Source: a virus. Taken from it: a stretch of 25,068 bases of DNA. Where the stretch lies: positions 1 to 25,068 of IMG/VR virus record IMGVR_UViG_3300017767_000121; one strand, 5' to 3'. A program made the position numbers and the translations under genes. Shown in pieces: positions 1 through 13,752 of this stretch. Numbering within the stretch: position 1 is the first letter of the stretch; the number at the start of each line of letters is the position of its first letter. A model generated the notes under the pieces. The model was not told the origin of the DNA. It did not search any database and saw nothing but the letters and a program-made list of their open reading frames with translations.

Positions 1-561
1 ACCTGAACTAGCGTTAACCCCTGTGCCAGTATATGTGACTGTGTTATCAGAACCGTCGATGTCCATATAGTTGGTGGCTTGGTCAATATTAATAGTTGAA
101 GTGACCGTATTGTTTGAGCCTTGAATAATCCAATCAAGATCTAGTGTTCCTGCTGCTGCCGTGGTCGCTTGGTTTAGCGTCAATGTATTGCTTGCACCTG
201 TCACGTTGACATTAACATTACTAGAATCTGCGCCATAAGTATTGGTTGTGTCGGTAACTACATTCATCACGTTTGAGTTACCAGTAAACTGAAATAACCC
301 AGTATAACTATCGGCGGTAATATCACCTTTCCACAGGTTGCTTGAACCTATCTGGTTAATGTCTAGTGTGTTGGTTGTTCCAATAAAATCAAAGTCAGTA
401 AGGTTGCCAGCAACAGAACCAACACCACCTATTAGGTTGCCACCACCTTGTTGTTCTAGGTCTATATTCGCCGTCGCGCCAGATTGATCCATAAAAATTT
501 CATTATCTGCAAACAATGGATGAGCTAACGTACACAAAACTAATAAAAGTATTCTATTCAT
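1..561 (-). CDS. Secreted curlin-repeat-like protein (partial, C-terminus beyond left edge)
   Basis: The frame is open from the ATG at 561-559 to the window edge, giving 187 residues of an unfinished protein. It begins with a Sec signal peptide, MNRILLLVLCTLAHPLFA, with likely cleavage before DNE. The rest is low in charge, rich in Asn, Thr, Gly and Ser, and built from degenerate curlin-like strands. Examples are IDLEQQGGGNLIGG, LDINQIGSSNLWKG, TGASNTLTLNQA and QGSNNTVTSTINIDQA, which repeat a Gly-x-x-Asn plus hydrophobic-x-Gln pattern every 20-25 residues. This resembles the Gln/Asn ladder of CsgA and CsgB. The ATG overlaps the csgG stop codon as ATGA, so the two are probably translationally coupled. 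The inferred role is cargo of the CsgG pore, assembled outside the cell. Signal peptide and repeats are visible; the curlin assignment is by pattern, and a generic secreted repeat protein remains possible. Confidence 0.7.
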   Translation of the reverse strand, partial: MNRILLLVLCTLAHPLFADNEIFMDQSGATANIDLEQQGGGNLIGGVGSVAGNLTDFDFIGTTNTLDINQIGSSNLWKGDITADSYTGLFQFTGNSNVMNVVTDTTNTYGADSSNVNVNVTGASNTLTLNQATTAAAGTLDLDWIIQGSNNTVTSTINIDQATNYMDIDGSDNTVTYTGTGVNASSG

Positions 562-1349
562 TTTTTAACGCTCCAGTATCCTGCCGTTAGACCGTCTTGA
601 ATTGTTTGGAGAACTGCCGTTTCTATGGCGGCTTGGAGGGCTAAATTGACAGACTCGTTTTGAACTGAGCCGTTCTCTATCTCAATCAATTCTGTGCCTT
701 GGGCAACAAATTTGAAAACATCCTGACTATATCCTACACTAAGAATACTCTTAGTGACCAGAACTTCAAGTAAAACCCGCCCTGTAAGCACAGAAACTGT
801 ACGTAACGACACTGTTACTGTATCTTTTCGATACTTTTTTGACGCTCCAATACCTAAGTAACGGGCACCCATGCCCCCGGAAGTTTGGTTACTTTCGTAA
901 CCTACAACACTTCCTTGCATTAATAATCCAGCAAACAACAACGGTTTTATCTTTTGTTTCTCACTGGCCTCTTGCCGTGTAGCGCGAATAATCTGGCGTT
1001 CCTTCATTAAGTTGTCTACACCAACGCGCTCAACTACATCGAAGAACCCTTGCTTTTGACCACCTGCATGGTGCAACGCTCGAATTAAATAAGTTACGGG
1101 GCTTTGCGTAACCGCTGTACTAAAGTTTGCAAACTCACCGTTACTGCGCCGTTGCCCAGTGTCGTCATTAAAAGCAACGCCATACACTGCAACGACAGGT
1201 CTTTTTTCTGGTGGTTCGACGCGAGCTAGTTCGGTAACCAGCAACGGTCGGATTTTGGGCAGTTCTTTTTTAGGAACAACATGATTACTGACAGTAGTGC
1301 AGCTAGAAGTAAAAATCACCAATAGGCACAGAAATAACAGTCGTGCCAC
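558..1349 (-). CDS. csgG: CsgG-like curli secretion channel lipoprotein
   Basis: This is an outer-membrane lipoprotein of the CsgG family, which forms the nonameric pore that exports curli subunits. Diagnostic segments are NFSTAVTQS, ERQIIRATRQ, GSVVGYESN, SGGMGARYLGIGA, a Y-x-x-D-x-VTVSLRTVSVLTG stretch, and the C-terminal AAIETAVLQTIQDGL. I chose the GTG at 1349. It gives 263 residues (E. coli CsgG has 277) and a compact lipoprotein signal, MARLLFLCLLVIFTSSC, with Cys17 as the lipidated residue. An ATG at 1490 is in frame but would add 47 residues before the signal peptide and overlap csgF by 188 bases. No clear Shine-Dalgarno precedes the GTG, so coupling to csgF (47-base overlap) is likely. 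The gene ends in an ATGA overlap with the curlin-like gene. Family assignment is secure; the exact start is less so. Confidence 0.93.
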   Translation of the reverse strand: MARLLFLCLLVIFTSSCTTVSNHVVPKKELPKIRPLLVTELARVEPPEKRPVVAVYGVAFNDDTGQRRSNGEFANFSTAVTQSPVTYLIRALHHAGGQKQGFFDVVERVGVDNLMKERQIIRATRQEASEKQKIKPLLFAGLLMQGSVVGYESNQTSGGMGARYLGIGASKKYRKDTVTVSLRTVSVLTGRVLLEVLVTKSILSVGYSQDVFKFVAQGTELIEIENGSVQNESVNLALQAAIETAVLQTIQDGLTAGYWSVKK

Positions 1350-1815
1350 CTGATTGGTCGGTAACGGTAAGTGAAACAGTTTGTCCGTTGGTGCTGTAGT
1401 CAACTTTATTGCCCTCAAGCTCAAAGCTTCCACTCTCTGATTTTGTTTCTCCAAACATGTTATCCACAAGCTGTCTGGATAACTCTGCATATATTCTACT
1501 CTCTAAATTGCGGATAAACCTAGCCAACGTACTATTATTGACCTCGCGCTCTGCTTCTTCAACTAAAGCAAGCTTTTCTTCTTTGATAGTTTCCTCTCGG
1601 CTATGTTCTTGGTTTTCGATAGTTAAGTAGTGAGCAGACGTACCGTTGCCAGAAAAGCTAGGACTTTTAAACTTGTGTAACATCTCTGCAGACGCAGTGT
1701 TTAGCGGAGAAAACAATAATAAAATACAGCAAACCAAAGCTACAAAAAAAATAACAACAACATGCCCTACAATACTAGCGGCTGTTTTTAATATTTTTTT
1801 TATCTTGGATCTCAC
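1303..1815 (-). CDS. csgF: CsgF-like curli assembly/transport component
   Basis: CsgF is a small exported protein that sits on the outer face of the CsgG pore, forms a second constriction and helps nucleate fibres. The mature region shows the family landmarks: an early HKFKSPSFSGNG stretch (E. coli has FQFRNPNFGGN), a central amphipathic helix ending IYAELSRQLVDNMFG, and a C-terminal VSLTVTDQSGGTTVISVP strand pair. The N-terminus is unusual. A basic stretch, then a hydrophobic segment of about 25 residues, then Ala-Ser-Ala before Glu gives a 43-46 residue leader. No ATG is available. The candidates are GTG at 1815 (used here, with a weak GAG upstream) and TTG at 1824, immediately after an in-frame stop. 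Both overlap the upstream holin-like gene. Its 3' end overlaps csgG. The family call is strong, the start uncertain. Confidence 0.88.
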   Translation of the reverse strand: MRSKIKKILKTAASIVGHVVVIFFVALVCCILLLFSPLNTASAEMLHKFKSPSFSGNGTSAHYLTIENQEHSREETIKEEKLALVEEAEREVNNSTLARFIRNLESRIYAELSRQLVDNMFGETKSESGSFELEGNKVDYSTNGQTVSLTVTDQSGGTTVISVPIGDFYF

Positions 1816-2035
1816 GTATCTCAATCACCGTATCAAGTTTCTGTTGTAACCGTATAATGTCATTATCCAACATACGTATTCGGTCGATTAATTCAATTAG
1901 TGTACCTATAGTCTCTCCAAGTTTAGACTTTATTTCATTGGTAATAAATTGCCATATAAAATAAATCATATAAAGCAAGCCAACTGTAGCAACAATAGGA
2001 AACCCATATTCACTAATTAGTTGAGCGATATCCAC
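1775..2035 (-). CDS. Small holin-like membrane protein (second of tandem pair)
   Basis: The 86-residue protein has a short N-terminal stretch, one transmembrane helix at about residues 10-32 (GFPIVATVGLLYMIYFIWQF), then a charged, probably coiled-coil tail with heptad-like Ile/Leu spacing to about residue 75. It starts with GTG, which shares one base with the stop of the preceding gene (TAGTG). The pattern E-x-GFPI, TM helix, coiled coil is shared with the gene just upstream, so the two look like a tandem duplication. Single-helix proteins with a cytoplasmic coiled coil next to an endolysin gene are usually holins, antiholins or membrane regulators of lysis. The name holin-like is inferred from topology and position. 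I cannot assign a family. Confidence 0.65.
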   Translation of the reverse strand: MDIAQLISEYGFPIVATVGLLYMIYFIWQFITNEIKSKLGETIGTLIELIDRIRMLDNDIIRLQQKLDTVIEIREIQDKKNIKNSR

Positions 2036-2316
2036 TAATCTCGCCTTGCGTCTTCTTTCCCATCTGCCCTAGAAATTCGATCTAAGTCAGGTCGAATACC
2101 AAGCACTGTACACATAGTACAATCTATACGCACCATGTCGTGATTCATTGTCTTAACTCTGTTGTCTAAGTTACTGACTATATTATGAATTGAATCAACA
2201 TCACCAACAACAGATGCCAGTATGAACTTAATAGATAGAAATACAAAAAAACCACCAATAATAGATATGGCTATTGGAAAACCAACTTCTGCTATTAATG
2301 CAAAGGCTTCATTCAT
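2035..2316 (-). CDS. Small holin-like membrane protein (first of tandem pair)
   Basis: This 93-residue protein has one strongly hydrophobic segment at about residues 10-37 (beginning EVGFPIAISIIGGFFVFLSI), then a polar helical region with IVSNLDNRVKTMNHDMVRID and a charged C-terminus. It aligns by eye with the protein encoded immediately downstream: both begin with a short helix, an E-x-GFPI turn and a TM helix, then carry a D-x-R...D-(I/M)-(I/V)-R coiled-coil pattern. Its start abuts the lysozyme stop at 2316, so it is translationally coupled to the endolysin gene. Holin or antiholin is the likeliest role from topology and context. An unrelated membrane protein cannot be excluded. Confidence 0.65.
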   Translation of the reverse strand: MNEAFALIAEVGFPIAISIIGGFFVFLSIKFILASVVGDVDSIHNIVSNLDNRVKTMNHDMVRIDCTMCTVLGIRPDLDRISRADGKEDARRD

Positions 2317-2807
2317 TAGGAATGCAACGTAGTATTATTAGGAGTATCCCAGCCATCAGTAGCATAAACAGCTTCTTTCATTCTGTTTATCAAACGATTA
2401 GCCCTATTAGGTACTTGTGTTGCCCAACGAGAGTCCGCCATTTCAATAGATGTTTGTTTAAAATCTTTATTATCTAAAGCTTTTTTCATATTTTTAAACT
2501 TACTTAACCTGGTGTAACCCATGTTAAACATCATATTAGCTAGTATACGCTGAACATCTTCAGGATATTCGTCAAAGTCTTCATACAACTTTTTACAGTC
2601 GCCAATAACTATTTGAATATCTTGTTCAAAACAATCATGTACTCTTAACTTATCCACAGAAGTACCCACAGCTTGTCCGTGCTCAGGATCAGACTCTTTT
2701 ATTAAATGACCTATACCAAAAGTAGGATACCCTAAATGATCTAAATAGATTTCAAATACGCATCCTTCATCTTCTGTTAGTTCTTCTCGTAGTTTATCTA
2801 TATTCAT
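2316..2807 (-). CDS. T4-type lysozyme endolysin (glycoside hydrolase 24)
   Basis: This endolysin hydrolyses the N-acetylmuramic acid to N-acetylglucosamine bond of peptidoglycan to release progeny. At 163 residues it nearly matches T4 lysozyme (164). The catalytic triad positions are visible: Glu14 in TEDEG, Asp23 in IYLDHLG and Thr29 in YPTFGIGH, equivalent to T4 Glu11, Asp20 and Thr26. The C-terminal half carries RILANMMFNMG and a SRWATQVPNRANRLI-like segment typical of the family. The ATG at 2807 is chosen because the protein then begins MNIDKLREELTEDEG, matching T4. An in-frame extension to 2930 would read through a different small gene. No signal peptide is seen, so export should depend on a holin; holin-like genes lie on both sides. 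The start follows the preceding stop after one base. Confidence 0.95.
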   Translation of the reverse strand: MNIDKLREELTEDEGCVFEIYLDHLGYPTFGIGHLIKESDPEHGQAVGTSVDKLRVHDCFEQDIQIVIGDCKKLYEDFDEYPEDVQRILANMMFNMGYTRLSKFKNMKKALDNKDFKQTSIEMADSRWATQVPNRANRLINRMKEAVYATDGWDTPNNTTLHS

Positions 2808-2808
2808 A

Positions 2809-2964
2809 TTATTTTTTTGCAGCAGTTTTCTTTTTAGTTGCAGGTTTTTTAACTTTAGAAACCGCTTCAACCACTCTAGTAGCCATTGGTTTAGGTTTTT
2901 TAGGAACATGCTCATAAACAAGAAGCCCAATTAACCCGATAAATATAAGTTCTAAAATACTCAT
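2809..2964 (-). CDS. 51-residue single-TM lysine-rich small protein
   Basis: This short gene lies between the upstream membrane gene and the lysozyme. It begins at an ATG sharing one base with the preceding TAA (TAATG) and ends one base before the lysozyme ATG. The product starts MSILELIFIGLIGLLVYEH, a single hydrophobic helix, followed by a Pro/Lys-rich basic tail ending KKPATKKKTAAKK. The exact fit into the overlap pattern of the cassette supports it being real despite its length. An N-out helix with a short basic cytoplasmic tail fits a small holin or a lysis regulator. Function is inferred only from topology and position. Confidence 0.6.
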   Translation of the reverse strand: MSILELIFIGLIGLLVYEHVPKKPKPMATRVVEAVSKVKKPATKKKTAAKK

Positions 2965-3146
2965 TAGTTTTTATTGGGAGGCAACATCTTTGCCTTTCCT
3001 ACATTTAGAGCAAGTAGTTCGACTACTTTGTACAGTTTACCAATAAGTACATCATCTTTAGGAGTAGGAGTTACAGATGCAATAAAAGACGCAGCACAAA
3101 CAATACCCGTTATAACGCTAACCATTTCAATAATCCAACTAACCAT
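2964..3146 (-). CDS. 60-residue small membrane protein, holin-like
   Basis: The protein has a hydrophobic N-terminal helix at about residues 3-26 (WIIEMVSVITGIVCAASFIA), then a conserved-looking soluble tail, SVTPTPKDDVLIGKLYKVV, followed by a short amphipathic helix. I recall similar tails (TPTPKDD...KLYKVVELLALNVGKAK) in small phage proteins next to lysis genes, but cannot name the family. It starts at an ATG that shares a base with the outer-spanin stop (TAATG) and ends in the same type of junction with the next small gene. The location between the spanins and the endolysin makes a holin-type or antiholin role plausible. That is inference. Confidence 0.62.
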   Translation of the reverse strand: MVSWIIEMVSVITGIVCAASFIASVTPTPKDDVLIGKLYKVVELLALNVGKAKMLPPNKN

Positions 3147-3499
3147 TAGTCTTCTCCTTTATCATAGTCCCGATAGAACTTTACAATATTTAGTATATTT
3201 TTAGTATACCTTTTAATTTCCGCCATGTTCATAGCTAAATTTTCGTATTGTTTAGTAGTCAACGCATAGTAAGGTTTACGTGGAGCTTTGTTTTCATCAA
3301 TCAAACCAAGATAGGTTGTCATAGTTTCTGGAGTAAGCACTTCAAATTGCACATCCGTTAACTGCATTTCCATTGGCAGTGGCGGATGATACATTGGAGG
3401 CCGTTCTGCAATAGTTTTTACTTCTACTTGTTTAGCATTGGGCATCATAGAACACCCACTAATCAATAAAAAACTAACCGCGAATGTCAATTTTCGCAT
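3146..3499 (-). CDS. Outer-membrane lipoprotein, probable o-spanin (Rz1-like)
   Basis: The 117-residue protein begins MRKLTFAVSFLLISGC, a textbook lipoprotein signal with Cys16 in the lipobox. A proline-containing linker follows (RPPMYHPPLPMEMQ), then a conserved helical C-terminal region containing YYALTTKQYENLAMNMAEI and a Lys/Tyr-rich helix. Its start lies inside the upstream coiled-coil membrane gene (26-base overlap), the classic arrangement of two-component spanins. The inferred role is the outer-membrane partner that binds the inner spanin and fuses the two membranes at the last step of Gram-negative lysis. It is longer than lambda Rz1 but typical of larger o-spanins. Lipidation signal and overlap are direct evidence; the spanin name is inferred from context. 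Confidence 0.75.
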   Translation of the reverse strand: MRKLTFAVSFLLISGCSMMPNAKQVEVKTIAERPPMYHPPLPMEMQLTDVQFEVLTPETMTTYLGLIDENKAPRKPYYALTTKQYENLAMNMAEIKRYTKNILNIVKFYRDYDKGED

Positions 3500-3965
3500 T
3501 TGGTACCTCTATTTTAGGGCTCTGTGGTGCTGTAGTTTCTTTTTGCGGGGGGCTAACCTCGTCTAATTCAACGTCAGGAGCATCAAATTGACCCGGATCT
3601 GTTATTTTTATAAGGGATTCTTTGATCTTGCGGGTTCCATTGTTAACCCGTGATTCAATAAGTTTAGGTTTAGCCAGTGCTAAGCTGTTCATGTCGTGCT
3701 TAGAAAACTTGTCTCTAAGGCTGTTAAACTCTCGTAAGGCTGCATTTTTTTCTGCTTCTAAACTAGTAAGCTGAAAGTTAATCTGTTCTTGTTTTTCTAA
3801 ATACGCATCAATAGAATCATTCTGCGTTTGAATCTGAGTTTCTAATACAATCTGATTGCCTTTAAGCACAGCCATTTGATTATTAAGATATTTAATATAT
3901 GAAGCAGAGCCCGCTAGCGACGCTAATAATAATGCACCCAATATAATTGCAAGCTTAAATCCCAT
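3474..3965 (-). CDS. Inner-membrane spanin, Rz-like
   Basis: The 163-residue protein has an N-terminal transmembrane helix at about residues 4-24, then a long polar coiled coil to about residue 90. A segment of the Rz-like type follows: KHDMNSLALAKPKLIESRVN, then NNGTRKIKESLIKIT. It ends in an acidic/proline-rich tail (PPQKETTAPQSP). This topology, one N-in helix with a periplasmic coiled coil, is that of i-spanins. It overlaps the lipoprotein gene by 26 bases, forming an i-spanin/o-spanin pair. The ATG shares its first base with a TAA that closes the second reading frame of the frameshifted upstream gene, which helps identify that frame as genuine. Confidence 0.78.
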   Translation of the reverse strand: MGFKLAIILGALLLASLAGSASYIKYLNNQMAVLKGNQIVLETQIQTQNDSIDAYLEKQEQINFQLTSLEAEKNAALREFNSLRDKFSKHDMNSLALAKPKLIESRVNNGTRKIKESLIKITDPGQFDAPDVELDEVSPPQKETTAPQSPKIEVPNAKIDIRG

Positions 3966-4208
3966 TACTTTTTCCTATAACGTCTGGTTTTCTTTGCTAT
4001 CTTCTTAGGCTGTTTACTATGTTGTTTACCTTTTTTAGTATCTTCTCGTTTCTTTTTAGTTGGCTGCGTATTCTTTTGAACTTAAACGCTTAATCGCTTT
4101 TTCTGGCAAATATCGTTCTCCTGTATCTGCTGATTTTTTACCAGATTTAGTGCGCCATTTTTGTTTAGTCCATTTTTTAAGACTCTTTTGACTCTTTGCA
4201 AGCGCCAT
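3965..4208 (-). pseudogene. Frameshifted small basic conserved phage protein (SQKSLKKW family)
   Basis: From the ATG at 4208 the frame encodes 50 residues starting MALAKSQKSLKKWTKQKWRT, containing GERYLPEKAIKRLSSKEYAA, and stops at TAA 4058-4056. I recognise this as the start of a roughly 80-residue basic phage protein family whose members continue with a Lys/Arg-rich tail ending KQPKKIAKKTRRYR-like. That tail is present here one base out of frame: just upstream of the stop the +1 frame reads TKKKREDTKKGKQHSKQPKK, then IAKKTRRYRKK, and ends at a TAA overlapping the i-spanin ATG. The second frame has no ATG of its own. A one-base insertion in the CCAAC tract near 4060, a sequencing error or a +1 recoding site would each explain it. 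The function of the intact family is unknown. Confidence 0.72.
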
Positions 4209-4363
4209 TACTTTCCAACTTTCTTCATAGCAGCTTTATGAGCTGCAGTAAATGTTTTACCAGAACGCATTGCTTTTCGCATTTCAGTCATGTGTTTAGC
4301 ACTATGATGAACACTATGTCTTTTTAATAATCCTTTTTGTCTTTCTGTTATTTGTTTTTTCAT
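4208..4363 (-). CDS. 51-residue basic His/Lys-rich small protein
   Basis: The gene starts at an ATG overlapping the previous stop as ATGA (4363-4360). It ends with a TAA whose last base is the first base of the next ATG (4208). The product begins MKKQITERQKGLLKRHSVHH, then contains KHMTEMRKAMRSGKTFTAAH and ends KAAMKKVGK. It is strongly basic with no membrane helix. I recall similar short proteins (a T-E-R-Q...L...H..HH...K.M..M...M..G.S F..AH..A...VG pattern) in marine phages. It may bind nucleic acid or be packaged with DNA, but no function is established. The junctions on both sides make it convincing as a gene. Confidence 0.7.
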   Translation of the reverse strand: MKKQITERQKGLLKRHSVHHSAKHMTEMRKAMRSGKTFTAAHKAAMKKVGK

Positions 4364-4548
4364 CGATATCCCCCGCCTGCGGCTTTGTATTGTTTAGCTA
4401 ACATTTGCGCTTTTCGCGCTGACCATTGACCGGGTTTACCGCCTTTACCACCTGCTTTTATACTAGAAAACAATCGCTTACGCATTGTCGGTTTAGTATA
4501 GTTACCAGCTTGGTTTACTTTAGACTTTGTTTTTTTCTTTACTGCCAT
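4360..4548 (-). CDS. 62-residue basic conserved phage protein
   Basis: The ATG at 4548 is chosen because it shares a base with the nuclease stop (TAATG) and gives the familiar start MAVKKKTKSKVNQAGNYTKP. Starting at 4563 would add five residues inside the nuclease gene. The protein continues with MRKRLFSSIKAGGKGGKPGQ and ends WSARKAQMLAKQYKAAGGGY plus Arg. It is very basic and soluble. Proteins with the KAG.KGG..GQWSARKAQ.LA..YK..GGGY pattern are common in marine phages and carry no assigned function. Lying among other basic proteins and two nucleases, it may bind DNA, which is an inference from charge alone. Confidence 0.78.
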   Translation of the reverse strand: MAVKKKTKSKVNQAGNYTKPTMRKRLFSSIKAGGKGGKPGQWSARKAQMLAKQYKAAGGGYR

Positions 4549-4919
4549 TAATAATCGCCCCAAACTTTTACTTTAGTACCGCCCCAGTACTCTACAGCTA
4601 GCCCCGCATCAATTAACTTTTGATTAAGTGAGTTGCCTTCTTTATCCCAGAGAACCCCTAGTATTCGACCATACTTACCTCGACCTTGTGACTCTAGCAC
4701 AAACCCATCTTGAGTAAGTTCTTGTAATAATTCTTTAGCTTGTAGCCCTAGTTTCTTTTCGGCTAAGTCGCGTGTACGTGATTCAGGAGTATCGATGCCA
4801 ACTAATCGTACCCGTTGTTTAGACAGTACAATTTTAAACCCTAAGTCTATATTTACATCTACTGTATCTCCGTCGACTACTCGATCTAAAGTACAGTTAT
4901 ACACAAAAGGCTTGGTCAT
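4548..4919 (-). CDS. Staphylococcal-nuclease-like (SNase/thermonuclease) endonuclease
   Basis: This 123-residue protein is a single SNase OB-fold domain, a calcium-dependent nuclease acting on DNA and RNA. The active-site pattern is intact: Asp18 in VVDGDTV (SNase Asp21), Arg38 and Asp43-Thr-Pro-Glu46 in RLVGIDTPE (Arg35, Asp40, Glu43) and Arg85 in GKYGRILG (Arg87). No signal peptide is visible, so it should act in the cytoplasm of the infected cell. A good AGGAGT site lies five bases before the ATG. Likely roles are degradation of host nucleic acid or processing of phage DNA late in infection; neither is shown here. It follows an HNH-like gene, so two nuclease folds sit side by side in the late operon. 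Confidence 0.92.
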   Translation of the reverse strand: MTKPFVYNCTLDRVVDGDTVDVNIDLGFKIVLSKQRVRLVGIDTPESRTRDLAEKKLGLQAKELLQELTQDGFVLESQGRGKYGRILGVLWDKEGNSLNQKLIDAGLAVEYWGGTKVKVWGDY

Positions 4920-4924
4920 GCGTG

Positions 4925-4930
4925 ACTCCT
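4925..4930 (-). promoter_or_regulatory. Ribosome binding site for SNase gene
   Basis: The minus strand reads AGGAGT here, five bases before the ATG at 4919. It partly overlaps the stop of the HNH-like gene. This fixes the nuclease start. Confidence 0.7.
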
Positions 4931-5213
4931 ATTTCTTTTTAGGTTTATTCCTCTTAACCGTATGATTAGAATTACGAGAGAAACTCCTGTTTTTACTAGG
5001 TTTTACTAATCTTAAATTAGATCGCTTATTAGTTCCACCTTTAGATAAAGGTTTTTTGTGGTCAATATCTTTACCTTTACGGTTTACTTTAGCTTTGTCT
5101 AGTTTATAACGAGCCCGCTCCCTGGCGTTGCGACGTTCCTGTTCTTTTTTACCCCTAGCTTTTTGCTGTTTGTATTCTTTTTTATAGGGTCTTGGTTTGT
5201 TTACGTAAGGCAT
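4929..5213 (-). CDS. HNH-endonuclease-like basic protein
   Basis: The 94-residue product is highly basic, with a Lys/Arg-rich N-terminal half containing KGKKEQERRNARERARYKLD-like charge clusters (residues 20-39). A compact HNH-like motif follows: Asp51-His52 in DIDHKKPLSKGGTN, Asn62, Asn66 in SNLRLV and Asn75 in KNRSF. This D-H...P-L-(S)-K-G-G-x-N...N-L-x-x-V...N-R spacing is the small-phage HNH pattern. Phage HNH proteins often nick DNA or assist terminase during packaging. This one is far from any terminase in view and lacks the zinc-binding cysteines of larger HNH enzymes. It starts with ATG at 5213, five bases after the preceding stop. Activity is not certain because the domain is minimal. 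Confidence 0.75.
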   Translation of the reverse strand: MPYVNKPRPYKKEYKQQKARGKKEQERRNARERARYKLDKAKVNRKGKDIDHKKPLSKGGTNKRSNLRLVKPSKNRSFSRNSNHTVKRNKPKKK

Positions 5214-8646: not shown

Positions 8647-8892
8647 CTATTTAGCGTCACTGCCTTCAAAAGACTCGCCGTTTTCAAACTTATACTGTTC
8701 TTTAACTTCAGCTATCAGCATATTAGTGTAAGACTGCAACGCAAGCTCTAACGGTTCTAAATCTAGTCTTCGTCTATTAACTTTATCTTGTAAGTCTCGA
8801 ATATGCCAAATGTACTTTCTTTGTTTATCTGATAAATCAGACTCTTTATAGTCTGTGCCGTCGATGCTAATTACGTTTGCTTCTTCAGTCAT
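8647..8892 (-). CDS. Small conserved phage protein (DUF6447-like)
   Basis: This 81-residue acidic protein opens with ISIDGTDYKESDLSDKQRKY and continues as one long helix with IWHIRDLQDKVNRRRLDLEP, then ALQSYTNMLIAEVKEQY. The short beta pair plus coiled coil resembles the family I recall as DUF6447 (I-T/S-I-D-G-x-x-Y, L-S-D, then a heptad helix). Its role is unknown; such genes are common in phage tail modules and may encode chaperones or accessory virion proteins. A GGAGA site lies six bases before the ATG. Confidence 0.7.
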   Translation of the reverse strand: MTEEANVISIDGTDYKESDLSDKQRKYIWHIRDLQDKVNRRRLDLEPLELALQSYTNMLIAEVKEQYKFENGESFEGSDAK

Positions 8893-8898
8893 GCTATT

Positions 8899-8903
8899 TC
8901 TCC
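8899..8903 (-). promoter_or_regulatory. Ribosome binding site for DUF6447-like gene
   Basis: The minus strand reads GGAGA six bases before the ATG at 8892, in the 12-base gap after the preceding gene. It supports this start. Confidence 0.65.
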
Positions 8904-8904
8904 G

Positions 8905-9240
8905 TTACCAAGATGATGGAAGTTTGCCCACAGATGTAGGCGTGTCTAGCTCTGTCAGTTGTGCATCTATATCAGTTTTTAGCTCTGCTTCAGTCCTGTC
9001 TATGTTTGCTAACACTTGTGTCTTGCACCAAGCCTCAGTCAAACTATTAAAGGCTGTAAAGCTGTCTGCATTTGCCGCACCTATAGTTGCCTGTCCATAA
9101 ATTGACGTAAAATTATTTGGGGTTTTTGCGTCACTCACGCCAGTAATACGCCAGTGTATAGATTTAACTACATCACTCAGCGAACCTTCAGTTGGTGCTG
9201 TATCTAGTTGTTCAAAGTTCCATGTGTACGTGTTAGCCAT
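8905..9240 (-). CDS. Conserved phage protein (DUF7936-like)
   Basis: The 111-residue protein starts MANTYTWNFEQLDTAPTEGS, followed by SDVVKSIHWRITGVSD, SIYGQATIGAANADSFTAFN and LTEAWCKTQVLANIDRTE. The order beta hairpin, W-x-I/F..L-D..P, V-x-x-I-H-W-x-x-T-G, then a C-terminal helix matches a small phage family I recall as DUF7936, often beside tail-fibre genes. Its ATG shares a base with the stop of the S74 fibre gene (TAATG), so expression is tied to the long fibre. Function is unknown; a fibre-associated structural or chaperone role is plausible from position. Confidence 0.7.
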   Translation of the reverse strand: MANTYTWNFEQLDTAPTEGSLSDVVKSIHWRITGVSDAKTPNNFTSIYGQATIGAANADSFTAFNSLTEAWCKTQVLANIDRTEAELKTDIDAQLTELDTPTSVGKLPSSW

Positions 9241-11927
9241 TATCCTGCCTCCAGTGCGGTTATTCTTGCTTCAAGTTCTTGTATTGTTTTTACCAGTAAT
9301 GGTACTAGTTTGCTTTGATCTATGCCTTGATGAATTGGTTTGCCATCACTATCTACCGCATCTTTTTCGCCTGTAATCGCGCTAGGCACAACGCTTGATA
9401 CTTCATGGGCAAGAAAACCATCAACAGTTCCTTTTTCTTGGTCTGTAATAAAATTAAACCTTGCTGGCTTCAACTGTTTTAATCTTGTTGTAGCATCCCA
9501 AGAATAATTAACGTTTTCTTTAAGGCGGTAGTCAGAGGCAGTGTTGTAAGTAAGACCTGAAGTGCCGTCTTGCACAATACTCCCAATCGGGTTTCCGTTA
9601 TGAGTAAACCATATGTAAGCCGCGCCACTAACCTCGGTGTTTAAATGCTGAATAGCTATTAATCCAGTTGAGGAGGTTTGTATTTGTACTGCTCTTTGGT
9701 TAGCAAAACCTATTGCTGTTGAGTTAAAGCAAGTATTACTACCTGAAAGCACTACCGTATTTGTAGCATTGCCTTCTTTTATTACAAAAGGGAAACTTCC
9801 AGTATCTCTATCGTTTATAACCATAGAGCCTGCTGATATTGATTGCGCTCCATCTGACCTTACCTGAAAGCCATAGCCAGCATTGCCATCTTCAAAAATC
9901 ATTTCGGCGTAACTGTTTGTTGCGCTAGTTGAGACTTTAGCAGTAGTCGCTCCACCACTAGCAATTTCTACAAGACTGTCTGGGGCAGTTGTGCCTATAC
10001 CTACCTTGCCGTCACCAGCAATCCGCATACGTTCTGTAGTTACTGCTGCTGCGTCATTACCTCCTCCAGTACCAACGCCAAAAGCTAAATATTCATTGCC
10101 CCAATTACCTGTAGCATATCCTGATGTTATGTCGGCTGTTCTTCTGTGACCTGTGTCGGAAGTTGGAGTTACAAAAGTTCCATAAAAAGCTAAATCTGCA
10201 ACTCTTGAATTTGCGCCACCTCCTGATTTCAATGCTAACGATGAACCATTTGTAGCCGCTACACCACCTTCAACAGTAAGTTTATTGTCACCTGTACCAG
10301 TTGTGCCTATAGCTATATTACCATCTGCAGCAATCCGCATACGTTCTGTGGCATTAGACGTAAACATTACTGGCGCATTATCACTGTTACCAACGACCAA
10401 TCCTGCGCTTGTTCCGTACCCTCCTCCTTTTTCAGCGAGAATAAATTGAGCATTGGTCGGTACACCAGAAGCTGCTGAAGCAGCGTTATATCCTAAAACT
10501 AATCTGTGATAGTTTGTTGCGTCACCGTTTCTAATTGCAAAGTCTCTATTAAAAGTAGAGCCACCAATATCTTGTATTGTTAATGGGTTTTCTGGAACAG
10601 ATGTGCCTATACCTACCTTGCCAGCATTAGTTATCCTCACACGTTCTGTTGCAGTTCCATTATCTACAGAAGATATAATAGCACCGTGACCTACACCTTG
10701 GTCTATATAACCAGAAAAATCTGCGCCGTATTCATCTCTAGTTGCCCGAATATCTGTTTGGCTTAAACCTGAGCCAGCCGCAGTCTGTTTCACTTGAAGA
10801 GGCTTAGATGGCGAAGTCGCCCCAATTCCTACATTACCATCATTAGTAATTCTGACGCGTTCTGTATTGTTTGTATTAAAACGAAATGGAATATTATCGC
10901 TAGTACCGATTCCACCAATAGCGTTGTAACTTTCAATATCTACTATACCGCCACCAGAAGCGCGTGAAATACGAAGTCCAGCACTCGTATCAGCAGAAGT
11001 TGTTATAGCTGCTCCAGTAGAGGTTGTAGCAAGTTTAGCTACGTTGTCGTGATAAAGCGTAACTGCGCCGTCAGGAGCAAGGACAATACTATCTTCTCCT
11101 GATTTTCCTTGCAGATTTAAATTTCCTGTGTTGTTTTGAATATACGAGTGCGATCCATCGTGTTGCAAAACCAAGTCAGATCCTGTTCCGAGGTTTATTT
11201 TATCTCCATCGGGAAATACAACATCGCCATTAGAATCAGTGGTCACTGCTTTTGATGCTTGGGTTGTTCCTAGTGTAGTAATGTCTAGGTAATTTAACTC
11301 TGCAGCGGTACTGGTAACACCATCTAAAATGTTTAGCTCTGCTGCGGTAGATGTGACACCATCTAAAATGTTTAGCTCTGCTGCTGTGCTTGTAACTCCG
11401 TCAAGGATGTTTAACTCTGCTGCGGTAGATGTAACTGCTGTACTAGCTATAGACAAAGCGTCTGTTTCGAGAGTGCCGTCTACGTCAACATCCCCGGATA
11501 TATCAAGGCTTCCAGCATCAAGCTCGCCTGATATAGTAATATTCCTACCACCTGTAATATCTTTATTAGAGTCGGTAATAATAGCTTTACTGGCTATAAC
11601 TGTACCCGCAGTAATACCGGTAGTAGGTTCAGTAGCGTCTTCAAGTACAGCGGCGGTTACCCGCAACTCAACAAAGTCTCCACTACTAAATGCTGCTGCA
11701 GATGTATTATCCTGTGCTCTAACTATGGTTAAAGTATCACCACTTCTTGCAGTAACTTTAACTATTTCTTTAGTAGCAAAGTCAGTAGTTTCAATAGTAG
11801 CGTAAAAATAATCCCCACCTGAAAGAGCAGGAAATACGGCTCCTGCAGCTACCGTAGCACTAGTAACGCTGTCATTTATACCAGAACTTAATGTAGTTTT
11901 AGCATTATTGCTGTATTTAATGCCCAT
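9240..11927 (-). CDS. Long tail fibre/tailspike with C-terminal peptidase S74 chaperone
   Basis: The 895-residue protein has an N-terminal virion-anchoring-like domain (residues 1-100, with TIETTDFATKEIVKVTARSG and GDFVELRVTAAVLED). Four 13-residue TSTAAELNILDGV repeats follow at 166-217. A long shaft contains at least four G-(K/N)-(V/I)-(G/A)-I-G-T-type units, each after an ER(M/V)RI strand. The last 98 residues are an S74 intramolecular chaperone. The self-cleaving Ser-Lys dyad is present in SDYRLKENV as Ser798 and Lys803, followed by LKPARFNF, DGFLAHEV and a terminal coiled coil, LVPLLVKTIQELEARITALE. The chaperone trimerises the fibre and is cut off autocatalytically. The product is probably the main receptor-binding fibre. 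The gene sits between short structural genes in the adsorption module. Confidence 0.92.
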   Translation of the reverse strand: MGIKYSNNAKTTLSSGINDSVTSATVAAGAVFPALSGGDYFYATIETTDFATKEIVKVTARSGDTLTIVRAQDNTSAAAFSSGDFVELRVTAAVLEDATEPTTGITAGTVIASKAIITDSNKDITGGRNITISGELDAGSLDISGDVDVDGTLETDALSIASTAVTSTAAELNILDGVTSTAAELNILDGVTSTAAELNILDGVTSTAAELNYLDITTLGTTQASKAVTTDSNGDVVFPDGDKINLGTGSDLVLQHDGSHSYIQNNTGNLNLQGKSGEDSIVLAPDGAVTLYHDNVAKLATTSTGAAITTSADTSAGLRISRASGGGIVDIESYNAIGGIGTSDNIPFRFNTNNTERVRITNDGNVGIGATSPSKPLQVKQTAAGSGLSQTDIRATRDEYGADFSGYIDQGVGHGAIISSVDNGTATERVRITNAGKVGIGTSVPENPLTIQDIGGSTFNRDFAIRNGDATNYHRLVLGYNAASAASGVPTNAQFILAEKGGGYGTSAGLVVGNSDNAPVMFTSNATERMRIAADGNIAIGTTGTGDNKLTVEGGVAATNGSSLALKSGGGANSRVADLAFYGTFVTPTSDTGHRRTADITSGYATGNWGNEYLAFGVGTGGGNDAAAVTTERMRIAGDGKVGIGTTAPDSLVEIASGGATTAKVSTSATNSYAEMIFEDGNAGYGFQVRSDGAQSISAGSMVINDRDTGSFPFVIKEGNATNTVVLSGSNTCFNSTAIGFANQRAVQIQTSSTGLIAIQHLNTEVSGAAYIWFTHNGNPIGSIVQDGTSGLTYNTASDYRLKENVNYSWDATTRLKQLKPARFNFITDQEKGTVDGFLAHEVSSVVPSAITGEKDAVDSDGKPIHQGIDQSKLVPLLVKTIQELEARITALEAG
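11277..11432 (-). repeat. Tandem 39-bp repeats in the S74 fibre gene
   Basis: Three full units and one diverged unit of 39 bp encode TSTAAELNILDGV copies. In the last unit the ILDGV turns into YLDIT. The copies differ mainly at third codon positions, which suggests old or selected repeats rather than a recent expansion. Confidence 0.85.
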
Positions 11928-13452: not shown

Positions 13453-13752
13453 TTAACATTTCCACCTTCTTCTAGCCTGTCTTATTCTAGAGTTAGGGTC
13501 ATTTCTTGTTTTAGCTGAGCTACGTTTAAGCTGACCTAGGGATCTAGCGCAATATGACTTACGTCGTTTTGCTGCTTTGCTTCCTTTTTTAACCTTTCCA
13601 GTAACCGCTGTCTTTAGTTTACTACCTGGATTTGCTTTACGATAGGCTCTAACGCCTTTCGCTGTCATGCCAGCTCCAGCTTTTGTTTTACGATAATTAG
13701 CGCCTTTTCCTTTAGTGGTCTTACGGATAGGCGTTTCTTTCTTTCTAGCCAT
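13453..13752 (-). CDS. 99-residue very basic conserved phage protein (DUF6321-like)
   Basis: The protein is dominated by Lys, Arg and Ala. It contains AGAGMTAKGVRAYRKANPGS, KLKTAVTGKVKKGSKAAKRR and KSYCARSLGQLKRSSA, and ends RIRQARRRWKC. The G-M-T-x-K-G-V-x-A-Y-R-x-x-N-P-G-S-x-L-x-T-A-V core followed by K-G-S-K-A-A-x-R-R-K-S-(Y/F)-C-A-R matches a phage family I recall as DUF6321, also found in cyanophages. The charge suggests nucleic-acid contact, but its function is unknown. Cys68 and the terminal Cys are notable in so basic a protein. The ATG shares a base with the giant virion-protein stop (TAATG). Confidence 0.75.
   Translation of the reverse strand: MARKKETPIRKTTKGKGANYRKTKAGAGMTAKGVRAYRKANPGSKLKTAVTGKVKKGSKAAKRRKSYCARSLGQLKRSSAKTRNDPNSRIRQARRRWKC

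Follow-up and report, generated by a model that had tools for sequence, protein, structure and literature searches.

A predicted curli-type secretion module beside the lysis genes of a podophage-type viral contig

The window analysed here is a whole contig of 25,068 bases from a marine phage (IMG/VR record IMGVR_UViG_3300017767_000121). Its left end carries, on the minus strand, h1, h2, csgF, csgG and a gene for a secreted repeat protein, with spanin and lysozyme genes directly before them:

1..561, minus strand: curlin-like secreted subunit A1, first 187 of 238 amino acids, cut by the contig end (signal peptide, repeats, family profile)
558..1349, minus strand: csgG, lipoprotein of the curli outer-membrane pore, probably starting at the GTG at 1349; the longest ORF extends to 1490 (PF03783, 2.4e-46)
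1303..1824, minus strand: csgF, pore partner (PF10614, 6.8e-21)
1775..2035, minus strand: h2, 86 amino acids, one predicted transmembrane (TM) segment and a coiled coil, a core component in the curli modules of phages (PHROG 18771, 5e-27)
2035..2316, minus strand: h1, 93 amino acids, same kind as h2, first gene of the curli module (identity to HTVC008M and Melnitz, linkage survey)
2316..2807, minus strand: lysozyme/endolysin, longest ORF to 2930 (PF00959, 4.8e-7)
2809..2964, minus strand: 51-residue one-TM protein, holin candidate (ORF and sequence only)
2964..3146, minus strand: 60-residue one-TM protein adjoining the spanins, holin candidate (PHROG 9685, unknown function)
3146..3499, minus strand: Rz1-type outer spanin (PHROG 812, 8e-15)
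3474..3965, minus strand: Rz-type inner spanin (PHROG 739, 1.5e-11)

An earlier note, made from the sequence alone, had described csgF, csgG and the repeat gene as overlapping one another. All three do lie on the minus strand at the coordinates it gave, each overlapping the next. It had also let csgF overlap the last holin-like gene of the lysis cassette. The overlap with the small membrane-protein gene at 1775-2035 is real; its assignment as a lysis-cassette holin is not upheld, since linkage makes it a curli-module gene. In the window lineage, virion and lysis genes form a co-directional run that ends with the module. The 60-residue one-TM protein accompanies either the spanins or h2 in related loci. 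Further into the window, several small and strongly basic proteins (50–99 amino acids) are encoded in a row among the virion genes (4056-5213 and 13453-13752), with conserved counterparts in related contigs. The label 'T7-like' given to this phage was not borne out: the 592-residue virion protein is closest, at 30–32% identity, to proteins of Aeromonas, Escherichia, Vibrio and Burkholderia podophages.

The contig ends within the repeat gene. Two related contigs, L002 and L003, are 99–100% identical to the window at these genes and encode a full-length repeat protein of 238 amino acids (L003:8501-9217), after which come genes for a FecR-domain protein and a CHASE2-adenylate/guanylate cyclase. 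Past the cyclase, L003 continues with replication genes on the opposite strand. The full unit, h1-h2-csgF-csgG-curlin-FecR-CHASE2 adenylate cyclase, is thus larger than the window shows, its last two genes lying beyond the contig end. The same order was found in the SAR11 phage HTVC008M, in the OM43 phage Melnitz and in the survey loci described below.

Both pore assignments held in profile searches (see list). Against structures of E. coli CsgG, the window protein scored 4e-42; it also retains the NFSTAV constriction motif. The GTG at 1349 immediately precedes a lipoprotein signal ending in TSSC, a lipobox called from the sequence. The N-terminal pore-binding segment of CsgF aligned weakly with that of E. 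coli CsgF (6l7a, E 0.03). A csgG match of 39.5% identity was also seen in a 1,499-base unannotated record, OR851715.1 (Salmonella phage S.Kent 1-2-1), which may be mislabelled bacterial DNA.

The window repeat protein by itself gave no Pfam match above cut-off, and we therefore used family profiles. Within the protein, GxxN occurs seven times versus 2.7 expected in shuffled sequences (P = 0.009), and hxhxQ (h = I, L, V, F or M) five times versus 0.5 expected, a count reached by 0/5000 shuffles. An alignment of 52 family members shows invariant Q, G and N residues at curlin-type spacing. The family profile matched the solved curli subunit 8c50 with an E-value of 1.1e-11 and E. coli CsgA with 0.007, and 16 of the 52 members matched Curlin_rpt (PF07012). 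The Melnitz homologues lie above the Pfam Curlin_rpt cut-off; its genome (L036) has two such curlin-associated repeat genes, at 8851-9570 and 10629-11645, in the same run as csgG. The AlphaFold2 model of the window protein is all beta (pLDDT 87.8), and a Foldseek search with it found no solved structure at a significant level (best hit at E 0.24; curlin 8c50 at E 5.3). From the family profile and the Pfam matches of its members, we assign the repeat protein as a predicted curlin, in line with its earlier proposal as the exported subunit. With a predicted CsgG pore lipoprotein, CsgF and a secreted curlin-repeat substrate, the locus has, as far as can be read from sequence, a near-complete set of the parts of a type VIII secretion (curli) system. 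All seven module genes are under purifying selection (dN/dS 0.02–0.17 where computable), and between L003 and L018 the cargo is better conserved than the pore (dN 0.13 vs 0.22).

We surveyed 100 csgG loci, counting each gene only where the flanking sequence sufficed. FecR was present in 81/81 loci with room and the cyclase in 56/62; h1 or h2 lay upstream in 65/65, T4-like phages included. The earlier note would have given up its proposal had related phages shown the pore genes far from lysis genes and never beside a secreted repeat protein. The pore genes do often lie away from lysis genes; the curlin gene was beside csgG in all 87 loci with room. Spanins or lysozyme were found within 4 kb downstream of csgG in 22/46 loci and upstream in 2/37, both lower bounds, with profiles built from the window's relatives. 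As lysis genes thus stand near the module in about half of the loci, this neighbourhood is lineage-specific. That the module sits in the lysis run, co-directional with spanins and lysozyme, is correct for the window phage; its coupling to that run via a holin gene is not, because h1/h2 open the module in 65/65 loci. In this lineage, closeness to lysis genes is best read as marking where the module stands among the late genes and not as a sign that it acts in lysis. Promoter and terminator scans stayed at chance level, and we draw no inference on timing from them.

The two small membrane proteins at the start of the module both match PHROG 18771 (unknown function) strongly. h1 is 48–51% identical to the first module gene of HTVC008M and Melnitz, and h2 is 47–48% identical to the gene preceding csgF in these phages. 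When loci were retrieved with h1/h2 instead, another curli gene was present in 101 of the 106 with at least 2.5 kb downstream. We searched 399 Pseudomonadota genomes with the h1 profile and obtained a single hit, in a metagenome-assembled genome (MAG) that contains several short contigs of phage-like character. Of the same genomes, 37 had csgF (E ≤ 0.001), the h1-bearing MAG among them, and h1 was present in 0/36 of the others. By their linkage to phage csg loci, together with this absence, h1/h2 are genes of the phage module; they lie outside the sampled bacterial curli operons and are not just holins closing a lysis cassette. Five separate h1 loci occur on short contigs (C129, C173, C200, C240 and C261) of a GTDB MAG titled Rhodobacteraceae (G004), at least four of them with csgF; probably several curli-carrying phages were binned together with their host. 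A bacterial origin of the module was considered and rejected, as five loci found in bacterial genome contigs all show the phage-type order, and a closer look at the one in G004 suggests contigs of phages that were binned with the MAG.

The FecR domain (PF04773) is present in 50/50 homologues. In the AlphaFold2 model, a signal helix and the FecR domain are followed by a linker predicted as disordered (206-293), after which comes a separate beta domain (298-367). This tail ends in [ILVM]x[ILVM]xQ in 46/50 homologues, versus 3/1169 other ORFs. Its profile matched curlin profiles at P about 8e-6, whereas seven other FecR segments did no better than 0.018, and 0/100 column shuffles reached the real score. 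The FecR domain itself resembles the PupR signalling domain (3e-4); to the antifreeze-adhesin anchoring domain 5ix9 it aligned with probability 1.0 but E 0.07, weaker than PupR by E-value. Among the matches listed for the FecR profile, the alphaproteobacterial ones end near column 223 of 371, many of them in very large proteins, and no FecR-curlin fusion was found in the sampled bacteria. In E. coli, the curli fibre is nucleated by CsgB. The degenerate C-terminal repeat of this nucleator has been implicated in CsgF binding (PMC10192328). The window lineage has no separate CsgB, and the curlin-type tail of FecR, a short and imperfect repeat, could serve in its place. These sequence features suggest that the phage FecR protein may be a surface-anchored nucleator. 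In the cyclase, the catalytic motifs FxDxxGF and KYxGD are kept in 136/167 and 130/167 homologues, respectively.

Modules of this kind are already known (PMC7029224, PMC9599517); the window contributes a lineage of podophage type in which the module stands next to lysis genes. The earlier note had thought a linked cargo and lysis coupling less familiar; both had been published, the CsgA/B cargo in PMC9599517 and a lysis role in PMC9004378. The type VIII systems described for HTVC023P-type and T4-like pelagiphages (Wittmers 2022, PMC9599517) consist of one or two short genes, csgF, csgG, CsgA/B, FecR, an optional second CsgA/B and adenylate cyclase. Gene set and order are alike in the window lineage, whereas the window, a contig of podophage type, differs in its tail genes, has the module beside lysis genes and has no second curlin. 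The short 'histidine kinase' genes of that report are, from position and length, most likely h1/h2, which have no kinase domain. Compared with the pelagimyophage and Melnitz modules (PMC7029224, PMC9004378), CsgG is 39–43% and CsgF 41–43% identical and the flanking order is shared, but csgF-csgG there lie near ssb and helicase-loader genes and in the window beside spanins and lysozyme. CsgG, CsgF and the curlin repeats are homologous to those of E. coli csgBAC-DEFG; in contrast to E. coli, the phage module has no CsgB as such and additionally contains h1/h2, the FecR-curlin fusion and the CHASE2 cyclase. Viral modules are reported to have no CsgC, CsgD and CsgE (PMC9599517), and the HTVC008M and Melnitz modules bear no CsgE annotation. 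A bacterial biofilm operon pairs a secreted FecR-domain protein with a CHASE2 kinase (PMC5192318). The phage module likewise pairs a FecR-domain protein with a CHASE2 sensor, but the bacterial operon has a kinase and response regulator as its output, curli genes are not reported for it, and its FecR protein has LysM instead of a curlin tail. The FecR-curlin fusion is new in this analysis; neither it nor the phage-specificity of h1/h2 was found in the available parts of PMC7029224 and PMC9599517.

Homology, a fixed gene order, purifying selection and signal peptides called from sequence support the module, and we regard a fibre-exporting type VIII secretion (curli) system as the probable explanation of the whole. 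By homology to solved complexes, CsgG would act as an outer-membrane pore during infection, with CsgF docked at its outer face. The curlin would pass through Sec and then CsgG and polymerise outside, while the FecR protein, with its signal peptide, adhesin-anchor-like domain, linker and curlin tail, would stay at the outer membrane and nucleate the fibre. The CHASE2-adenylate cyclase may read the state of the envelope and make cAMP, and h1/h2 may be phage-specific inner-membrane helpers. An infected cell would then bear amyloid fibres before lysis, which could keep cells attached to one another or shut out rival phages. In cultures infected with Melnitz, no clumping was observed (PMC9004378). 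A more far-reaching version is a self-contained curli device, in which the FecR adhesin-anchor/curlin-repeat chimera replaces CsgB, fibre engagement is converted into a CHASE2 cAMP signal and h1/h2 gate export; this we propose only tentatively and consider rather doubtful.

A lysis role for CsgGF of Melnitz was proposed by Buchholz 2022 (PMC9004378), in part on the apparent absence of csgA/B. On this view CsgG/CsgF would open the envelope or time release, h1/h2 possibly acting as holins, in keeping with the spanins and lysozyme that adjoin the module in the window and in about half of the related loci, and with a weak holin family match, found for h2 only (1.4e-5, in 5/6 members). We think this improbable. 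The absence of csgA/B stated in that paper is contradicted by the deposited Melnitz genome with its two curlin-repeat genes above the Pfam cut-off, and in the T4-like phages Melnitz and HTVC008M no lysis gene was observed next to the module. Curlin, FecR and cyclase are under purifying selection and would be needless for a lysis pore, and separate one-TM holin candidates adjoin the spanins. Holins were also rejected as the main reading of h1/h2 on grounds of linkage (101/106 loci with another curli gene): the pair was not found to keep a place in lysis cassettes where csg genes are missing, with one exception. At L064:4085-5918, h1-h2 are directly followed by spanins and lysozyme without curli genes, the sole case of the pair alone in a lysis cassette, and one that favours a lysis role. 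The lysis hypothesis hence loses two supports, i.e., the premise that phages are without csgA/B and the supposed holin link.

A pore that feeds the infected cell by admitting larger nutrients or cofactors was proposed in PMC7029224 and PMC9599517. Since the viral modules have no CsgE (PMC9599517), such a pore may stay open, but a feeding role leaves the universal curlin and FecR-curlin partners unexplained, and we judge it very improbable. It is likewise unlikely that the module serves mainly signalling, with FecR and the CHASE2-adenylate cyclase reporting on the envelope and switching cell physiology while fibres are secondary. The FecR/CHASE2 kinase pairing of the bacterial biofilm operon (PMC5192318) and the catalytic motifs kept in many cyclase homologues argue for it; against it, the cyclase is missing in 6/62 modules that retain pore, curlin and FecR.

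A fibre-exporting curli module would matter beyond this phage. Scans with the module genes gave at least about 600 viral matches each, i.e., the module is common in viruses, and infected cells may therefore often display a surface protein fibre. If so, such a fibre would have consequences for how cells aggregate, for superinfection and for the formation of particles in the sea. The module also holds parts not found in the sampled bacterial curli genomes, namely the FecR-curlin chimera as candidate nucleator and the phage-only membrane pair h1/h2. Around this pair, two variant arrangements were observed. In one lineage, a 365-residue protein with a metallopeptidase-like HEYRH motif and no Pfam or PHROG match is encoded between h1 and h2 (L005:2614-3711). 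At L109:4831-7254, a 635-residue autotransporter beta-domain protein (PF03797, 6.6e-12) replaces csgF/csgG after h1-h2, which hints at a broader role of the pair in surface export.
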